Assembly (NCBI GenBank): GCA_026984045.1 | Contig: JALSSV010000075.1 | Location: 1 to 41,832, forward strand | Direction of reading: 5' to 3' | Source: Chromatiales bacterium | Lineage (GTDB): Bacteria > Pseudomonadota > Gammaproteobacteria > UBA6429 > Thiohalophilaceae | Length of the DNA: 41,832 nucleotides | Shown here: positions 18,860 through 30,346 of the stretch, piece after piece | Numbering within the stretch: the first letter of the stretch is position 1 | Layout: each line of letters opens with the position of its first letter | Position numbers and translations under genes: made by a program | Notes under the pieces: model-generated | What the model was told of the DNA's origin: nothing | The model's input: only the letters and a program-made list of their open reading frames with translations | The model's database searches: none

Positions 18860-18878
18860 TCCCAAGCATTGTGCGTTT

Positions 18879-19043
18879 AACAGGCTGTTGAAAAAGCCCA
18901 TCCATGGGCTTTTTCAACCCGGGAACGGAAAACGCGGTTTCCCGTTCCCTTACATTTTCAATGACTTGACGTCATTGAAAATGGCGATGCATCCATGCAT
19001 CGCACACAGGCTGTCGAAAAACGGTGTTTTTCAACAGCCTGTT
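18879..19043. repeat. Five-hairpin palindromic element with 17-bp inverted ends (MITE-like)
   Basis: The ends are AACAGGCTGTTGAAAAA (18879-18895) and its exact complement (19027-19043). Inside, five hairpins follow one another with gaps of 0-4 bases: 18888-18917 (14 bp perfect), 18921-18949 (8 bp, one mismatch, 4 bp), 18953-18983 (13 bp perfect), 18984-19003 (9 bp perfect) and 19008-19040 (7 bp, one mismatch, 7 bp). A third copy of the end sequence begins at 19044. No protein is encoded. The first hairpin ends in CTTTTTC and could terminate the upstream gene. I read it as a non-autonomous mobile or structural repeat. Confidence 0.85.
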
Positions 19044-19120
19044 AACAGGCTGTTGAAAATAAGCGAGTCGTCGTGTCGACTTCTGTTGGGCCGGCGAATC
19101 GTGCAGCTCGTTCGGGCACC

Positions 19121-19232
19121 GCCCCGCAGGGAGGAGAGACCTTTCGGGACACGCCGTAAATACGTCCCTGTAGGCTCGACAGCCGCATCCCTGCGGCTGA
19201 CGGTCCCGAAACGTCTCTCCTCCCTCCGGGGC
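19121..19232. repeat. Long palindromic intergenic element, copy A
   Basis: Two 30-base arms (19121-19150 and 19203-19232) pair at 28 of 30 positions. The core between them contains GTAAATACGTCCCTGTAGGC and an inner hairpin CAGCCGCA-tccc-TGCGGCTG (19180-19199). The core is shared with the element at 30064-30227, while the arms differ. The copy lies in the 450-base leader of ffh, so it may be transcribed upstream of the SRP gene. Confidence 0.85.
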
Positions 19233-29980: not shown

Positions 29981-30346
29981 GTTGTGCTCCTTGTGCGAAT
30001 GTTCGGCTGGACAGCCGTTCCGAATCCCCGTTCATCGTTGGCGGTCGACGCTGAATCTTGCACGCCCCTGAGGCCGGGGGGGACGTTGCGTGACACCCCG
30101 TGAATACGTCCCAGTAGGCTCGACGGCCGCAGTCGCTTCGGGCATCCTGCCCTCACGCGACACTTGTCCGTCCTGGACATTGTCCCTGCGGCCGACGGTC
30201 GCGAAACGCCACCCCGGCCTCAGGGGCTTTGTCCAGGTCACGGTCGAGTGTCCTGAAATTCGGAACGGTTGTCCGCCTTATGGTAGCGGGAATCGCGAAC
30301 GGGCGCGAGTATGCCACGGCCGGCAGGCCGGGCACCTTGTTCTGGA
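29981..30346. other. Intergenic region between fdxA and mutS, containing palindromic element copy B
   Basis: The 366-base gap separates mutS from fdxA, both on the minus strand. Bases 30064-30227 are the palindromic element described separately. The right part (30228-30346) carries the end of the mutS transcript; the left part (29981-30063) should contain the fdxA promoter and ribosome site (GGAGCAC just upstream of the ATG on the minus strand). No gene is seen. Confidence 0.6.
30064..30227. repeat. Long palindromic intergenic element, copy B
   Basis: The outer arms (30064-30094 and 30198-30227) begin with a perfect 16-bp match (GCCCCTGAGGCCGGGG) and continue with a one-base bulge and few mismatches. 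The core GTGAATACGTCCCAGTAGGC and the inner stem CGGCCGCA/TGCGGCCG correspond to copy A. Its loop holds a 51-base insertion (30132-30182) that forms two more hairpins: GTCGC..GCGAC enclosing GGGCA..TGCCC, and GTCC..GGAC. Confidence 0.85.

Follow-up and report, generated by a model that had tools for sequence, protein, structure and literature searches.

The window, i.e., the whole stretch of 41,832 nucleotides that was analysed, belongs to the genome of a Chromatiales bacterium (G000; 2.98 Mb in 104 contigs) and contains two copies, A and B, of a palindromic element. Copy A shares the interval between ffh and a metallo-hydrolase gene with a second multi-hairpin repeat and is located downstream of a TATAAT-like box, and copy B lies between mutS and fdxA, which are both encoded on the minus strand. 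In G001, the sole genome of the same genus compared, the sites of both copies are empty, as is the site of the second repeat; at copy B, the comparison revealed a clean insertion of about 250 bp (30006–30254) that is missing in G001. The following features were identified:

18873–19045, minus strand: second multi-hairpin repeat, unrelated in sequence and adjoining copy A; five hairpins (AACAGGCTGTTGAAAAAGCCCATCCATGGGC...), about 20 copies in the genome
19121–19150, no strand assigned: left arm of the long variable stem of copy A; inverted repeat with 19203–19232, 93% complementary, without a counterpart at the G001 site
19142–19212, minus strand: three-way-junction core of copy A (covariance model R1, 93.5 bits, E 2.4e-23)
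19161–19172, minus strand: hairpin 1 of copy A, TAC-AGGGAC-GTA, with an ANGGAN hexaloop at 19164–19169; consensus across copies CANGGANG
19180–19199, minus strand: hairpin 2 of copy A, CAGCCGC-AGGGAT-GCGGCTG, with an ANGGAN hexaloop at 19187–19192
19203–19232, no strand assigned: right arm of the long variable stem of copy A; inverted repeat with 19121–19150
30009–30274, minus strand: whole inserted element of copy B, bounded by 17-nt inverted repeats (GGACAGCCGTTCCGAAT / ATTCGGAACGGTTGTCC)
30086–30207, minus strand: core of copy B with a 52-nt insert in hairpin 2 (R1 match of 59.7 bits, E 4.2e-14)
30105–30116, minus strand: hairpin 1 of copy B, TAC-TGGGAC-GTA, in which GGA is retained and the first A of the loop is gone
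30140–30152, minus strand: extra hairpin of copy B, GGGCAGGATGCCC, with AGGA in the loop
30165–30179, minus strand: extra hairpin of copy B, TGTCC-AGGAC-GGACA, with AGGA in the loop

An earlier note on this DNA had proposed a palindromic element at 19121–19232 (A) and 30064–30227 (B), and both were confirmed as inverted repeats that fold better than shuffled sequences. The arms of copy A comprise 30 nt at a spacing of 52 nt, and none of 200 shuffles folded equally well as DNA (z = -9.4). Those of copy B (30064–30082 and 30209–30227) are enclosed by the outer 17-nt inverted repeats (30009–30025 and 30258–30274), with a DNA fold z of -7.9. The core common to A and B was also found as described, including a compensatory change from A-T to G-C in the inner stem (CAGCCGC/GCGGCTG versus CGGCCGC/GCGGCCG). 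With regard to the outer arms, which were held to differ between the copies, the arms of each copy do pair with each other, but they are not wholly unrelated and rather represent divergent members of one family. Most copies in G000 have an arm that reads roughly GCCCTTGAGGCCGGGGAGGC, and truly unrelated arms were seen in the copies of genome G007. Covariance model R1 (71 positions) gave exactly two matches in the window, namely copies A and B, both on the minus strand. Copy B is an extended, partly degenerate copy of the family carrying added hairpins.

Family membership and range

The earlier note had recognised no named family and had set a match to a described RNA or REP family as its own counter-evidence; this match was found in YPAL/RU-2 of Yersinia pestis. 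The published 168-bp RU-2 holds GCGTCCGCGCCAAGGATGGCGCGGCTCGAGCCTACATGGATGTATTTACGGCGTC, which is the core on the minus strand of the window with both ANGGAN loops (PMC2759123), and comparison with the A1 consensus revealed the same core and hairpin layout, with identical bases at the invariant positions and both loops. YPAL has been described as palindromic, intergenic, and multicopy, its target duplications being long, variable, and located close to dyad symmetry (PMC2229807). The internal inverted repeats giving a long stable hairpin are present in our copies as well, and mobility, which is apparent in the present family from empty versus filled sites, is another shared feature. By their sequence, copies A and B belong to the YPAL superfamily. 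YPAL was described in Yersinia and Erwinia carotovora, whereas the present family is class-wide and its arms and outer ends vary between lineages. An Rfam search of the window at gathering thresholds resulted in tRNAs only. Below them, Ysr224 (RF02770) matched the same core (38.5 bits, E 8e-6), but this score is lower than its gathering score of 70, and the model is annotated as a Yersinia sRNA on the opposite (plus) strand. Though the core sequence of YPAL/RU-2 was already known, the present analysis adds a three-way junction, the folded strand, a loop motif, and a class-wide range; neither junction and strand nor CsrA-type loops and class-wide range were found in the YPAL literature searched, a set outside which the original 2006 J Bacteriol description lies.

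By DNA similarity, 40 well-scored copies were identified in G000 (at least 40 overall), ten of which carry the exact core, and the exact core occurred in three of 58 relatives, G000 counted among them. Scanning of named genomes with CGCCGTNAATACNTCCNTGTAGGCTC resulted in at least 119 stretches. Among the matches listed were Yersinia similis, Stenotrophomonas, Rheinheimera, Halopseudomonas, Marinobacter, Methylotuvimicrobium, Shewanella, Oceanimonas, and many MAGs, and nearly all of the records among these listed matches were labelled as gammaproteobacteria or as genera of that class. Methylotuvimicrobium buryatense 5G harbors several copies. The covariance-model search with a covariation test, which the earlier note had proposed as a check, turned out clearly in its favour: the model, built from 47 diverse copies, matched 77 of 369 genomes sampled across the gammaproteobacteria, and covariation was strong. 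The range of the repeat family is class-wide in the gammaproteobacteria.

A phage origin was rejected (no phage records with the element, one IMG/VR contig), and so was spread by plasmids (two weak plasmid matches for the window-type core and 28 for a Yersinia-type query). Within an IMG/VR contig labelled viral, a Yersinia-type copy was located (L169, 6230–6254). The copies of genome G376 (L200–L208, L219) are near-identical and recent. They share the ends GCATCCGTGATCGGTTA...TAACCGAACACCAATGC, vary over a short stretch immediately inward of the left end, and are in many cases located at contig ends.

The three-way junction and its strand

On the minus strand, the element consists of an arm (about 28 bp, free in sequence), hairpin 2 (stem likewise free), a single A, hairpin 1 (GCC-UAC-ANGGAN-GUA-UUNAC-GGC), GU, and the second arm. 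Pairing was retained in 96.1% of cells compared to 71.5% in shuffles, with 231 double-changed cells versus 52, and none of 500 shuffles reached as high, though these shuffles ignore the kinship of the aligned sequences. Double changes were detected at 17 of 23 pairs, and the covariation score was 0.61, in comparison to 0.14 for shuffles and at most 0.13 for slid controls. Based on these slid controls and on the variety of stems, chance is untenable. RNAalifold, unprompted, returned the three-way junction with columns 11–37 and 12–36 paired and with double changes at 19 of 24 pairs, and all seven stem pairs of hairpin 2 were doubly changed somewhere across the family copies. In hairpin 1, the GTA of GTAG was paired in all 47 sequences, and in two of these the middle pair had changed in a compensatory manner. 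Apart from the loops, invariant unpaired bases were identified in AGCC and UUNAC. The minus strand of the element thus forms a three-way junction, and the selection on single-strand structure suggested by the earlier note is strongly supported, with the folded strand now nameable.

In a palindrome, either strand can fold, but only the strand on which selection acts will retain G-U pairs. Among 168 copies with good arms, minus-strand mispairs comprised 194 G-U versus 43 A-C and 147 purine-purine versus 34 pyrimidine-pyrimidine oppositions; nominal p-values for such counts overstate the significance, as copies are not fully independent, although the arms differ among most copies. Per copy, 95 favoured the minus and 13 the plus strand, the bias being spread along the arm. 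The asymmetry had the same direction in all four gene contexts (++, --, +-, -+), and its same sign in ++ and -- rules out a transcription-coupled mutational strand bias. In addition, the minus RNA was more stable than the plus RNA in 197 of 231 copies (median difference of 4.0 kcal/mol), and the mispairs of hairpin 2, taken by themselves, did not suffice in number to indicate a strand. Folding of the minus strand is therefore well supported, irrespective of how the neighbouring genes are oriented. The asymmetry names the strand and not the chemistry, since G-U/G-T and G-A mispairs are accommodated by RNA as well as by single-stranded DNA.

These counts also bear on a neutral origin, in which quasi-palindrome correction, i.e., template switching during replication, keeps the arms of an inert element complementary without selection. 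Such a process would account for arms within one genome that are long and perfect yet unrelated in sequence, but it predicts equal numbers of G-T and A-C mispairs, and both the minus-strand excess of 194 over 43 and the conservation of the loops are left unexplained, so that we consider it very improbable.

Insertion sites and mobilisation

Filled and empty sites document past mobility of the element. In Pantoea plasmids, they were distinguished by an insertion with AAACTGCGCGGCTTCCACCGCGCAGTTT, a whole 28-bp intrinsic terminator hairpin, on either side. In plasmid NZ_CP016890 (L281, 2425–2690; compared with L283 and L286), the T-tract accompanies only the downstream terminator copy, so that insertion relocates the terminator beyond the element. 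At the same Pantoea site, L281 and L284 harbor short and long multi-hairpin versions of hairpin 2, which indicates that hairpin arrays were gained or lost in place. A copy in a Klebsiella plasmid is flanked by two terminator-hairpin copies. Direct repeats of at least 11 nt were detected at eight of 261 copies versus 0.5% in mismatched pairs, a small excess, and no direct-repeat target duplication was found around copies A and B; in most other copies, recognisable target duplications are lost.

With regard to gene context, which is approximate as it was derived from our own coding-score gene caller, 76 copies were in ++, 55 in --, 74 in convergent, and 31 in divergent arrangement. Reading from the nearest gene with its 3' end towards the element corresponded to the plus strand in 121 cases versus 84 for the minus strand, and ++ copies lay a median of 40 nt after the stop codon. 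Judging from two sites, fixed-orientation insertion into terminators could cause the 121/84 bias irrespective of function. The published view of YPAL as a stable 3' UTR hairpin that protects the upstream mRNA from decay, with loops of no special role, draws on a report that YPAL RNAs are expressed together with the genes upstream and may influence the stability of transcripts (PMC2229807), and the excess of convergent over divergent gene pairs and the distance of 40 nt agree with it. However, the upstream mRNA usually carries the plus strand, yet selection kept the minus strand foldable, and stability alone would not conserve ANGGAN on 41 different stems. We therefore regard this view as quite improbable.

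A Y1 transposase was present in 11 of 12 element-rich genomes, the exception being G007 despite at least 13 copies. In G000, the sole Y1/RAYT-like transposase gene found (C98:16243–16563, L049) is flanked by a different repeat, GTAGGAGCGGCGCC. RAYT mobilisation was thus rejected as a general cause, based on G007 and on the position of the G000 gene. GTAG-type REPs, which are mobilised by RAYT tyrosine transposases, are likewise intergenic palindromes of gammaproteobacteria that are commoner downstream of genes (PMC3733652), and the core does have GTAG beside a hairpin. Here, however, GTAG forms the 3' half of the hairpin-1 stem and is not an unpaired tag, the unit exceeds 110 bp compared to 20–40 bp for REPs (PMC3733652), its architecture differs, and RAYT is not required, as the many G007 copies lack any Y1 transposase. 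Classification as such a REP appears extremely improbable, notwithstanding the frequent Y1 genes.

A single-strand transposition signal is a serious rival, though on balance an unlikely one. The minus-strand fold would then be the substrate of a mobilising machinery, whose recombinase or transposase recognises the junction, the ANGGAN loops, and the invariant unpaired bases in a single-stranded DNA or RNA intermediate and inserts at hairpins such as terminators. As expected from this, the strand asymmetry is independent of the orientation of neighbouring genes; the invariant unpaired bases lie outside the loops, insertion occurred directly at hairpins (the duplicated 28-bp terminator in Pantoea and the Klebsiella plasmid copy), and G-T and G-A mispairs are tolerated by DNA as well. 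The plus strand is also slightly more often co-oriented with the upstream gene. On the other hand, no cognate enzyme was found, in view of the Y1-free G007 and the only Y1 gene of G000 beside another repeat. Should the loops have their role in mobilisation, the junction would tell us which structure is acted on by an enzyme that targets terminators and copies the complete hairpin upon insertion.

Hairpin loops and CsrA/RsmA

In hairpin 2, which was unconstrained by the search pattern, GGA occurred in 226 of 228 called loops, and 200 of 202 hexaloops were ANGGAN; the loops were found on 41 different 5-nt stem halves, and each of the four letters was seen at the first as well as at the last N. 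Hairpin 1 displayed ANGGAN in 231 of 231 copies, which is partly built into the pattern; both N were left free and take all four letters. In both hairpins, the ANGGAN/GGA loop is closed by a C-G pair, as in CsrA/RsmA sites. NMR analysis of RsmE revealed contacts to exactly the A and GGA of an ANGGAN loop, the N being variable, and the SELEX consensus of CsrA is RUACARGGAUGU (PMC7652899), to be compared with UACANGGANGUA in hairpin 1. In extended copies, the added hairpins showed GGA in 19 of 32 minus-strand loops and in six of 37 plus-strand loops.

The second repeat beside copy A also possesses two short-loop hairpins with minus-strand ANGGAN (14 of 18 aligned copies for loop a, 13 for loop b). 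Since this sequence-unrelated repeat shares the loops, the loop itself seems to be selected and not one transposon's private signal. The transposition-substrate model fits the strand and the junction as well as the CsrA model does, but not these convergent loops, and it leaves their exact match to the CsrA consensus unexplained.

The distribution of csrA points in the same direction: the gene was identified in 63 of 64 element-bearing genomes of at least 90% completeness versus 217 of 250 without the element (Fisher p = 0.006), an association part of which may be driven by reduced genomes. It was undetected in copy-bearing G231 (98% complete) and G376 (85%), likely due to assembly gaps, and other genomes of both families have csrA (two for G231).

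Altogether, the reading we prefer, at a probability of about 0.45, is that of a mobile YPAL-superfamily element for which we infer expression of a minus-strand RNA, its binding to CsrA/RsmA, and a regulatory effect. These are small, non-autonomous, mobile palindromic elements of a class-wide superfamily including YPAL/RU-2 of Yersinia, whose minus-strand RNA would fold into a long stem capped by the three-way junction and two short ANGGAN hairpins closed by C-G, some copies carrying further GGA hairpins. A CsrA/RsmA dimer would grip the paired loops, and each expressed copy would thus be a portable candidate site that tethers CsrA to the carrier RNA; alternatively, the copies together may titrate CsrA. 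The main point against this CsrA model is that mRNAs do not preferentially carry the GGA strand (plus 121, minus 84). Moreover, Ysr224, a reported Yersinia RNA, lies on the plus strand, no obvious minus-strand promoter was seen in a non-systematic look, the invariant unpaired AGCC and UUNAC are not explained by CsrA, and G231 has copies without a detectable csrA. Hairpin 2 is, in addition, a stable one, and SELEX results suggest that CsrA binds hairpins of very high stability poorly (PMC7652899).

The wider claim that class-wide mobile repeats carry paired CsrA/RsmA docking hairpins, with transposition seeding and titrating sites and with at least one unrelated repeat family converging on the loops, so that Csr would be a common target or helper of selfish palindromic DNA, is possible but rather doubtful. 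If the loops are CsrA sites, an overlooked large set of repeats feeds a global regulator, with copy number setting CsrA availability; each insertion could rewire a gene, and YPAL-like repeats, described since 2006–2007, gain a molecular partner and a strand.

In comparison, CsrA-sequestering RNAs of the CsrB/RsmZ type share hairpins with ANGGAN or AGGA loops, several of which also occur in extended copies, but the present elements are dispersed mobile repeats with two core hairpins, and the Rfam CsrB/Rsm models did not match the element. TwoAYGGAY and Bacillaceae-1 RNAs are predicted CsrA binders (PMC4333381) with two hairpins bearing CsrA-type loops, a prediction following the same line of argument, but outside the loops they are unrelated to the present element; the TwoAYGGAY covariance model (RF01731) gave no match in six loci up to an E of 5. 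No published link between YPAL and CsrA was found in the literature search. A few Methylo- copies have their added hairpins reversed. In the methanotroph and related copies L089, L101, and L135, the GGA of extra hairpins such as TTTTGCAGGAGCAAAA is located on the strand opposite to the core, which looks as if an independent module had been inserted in either direction.
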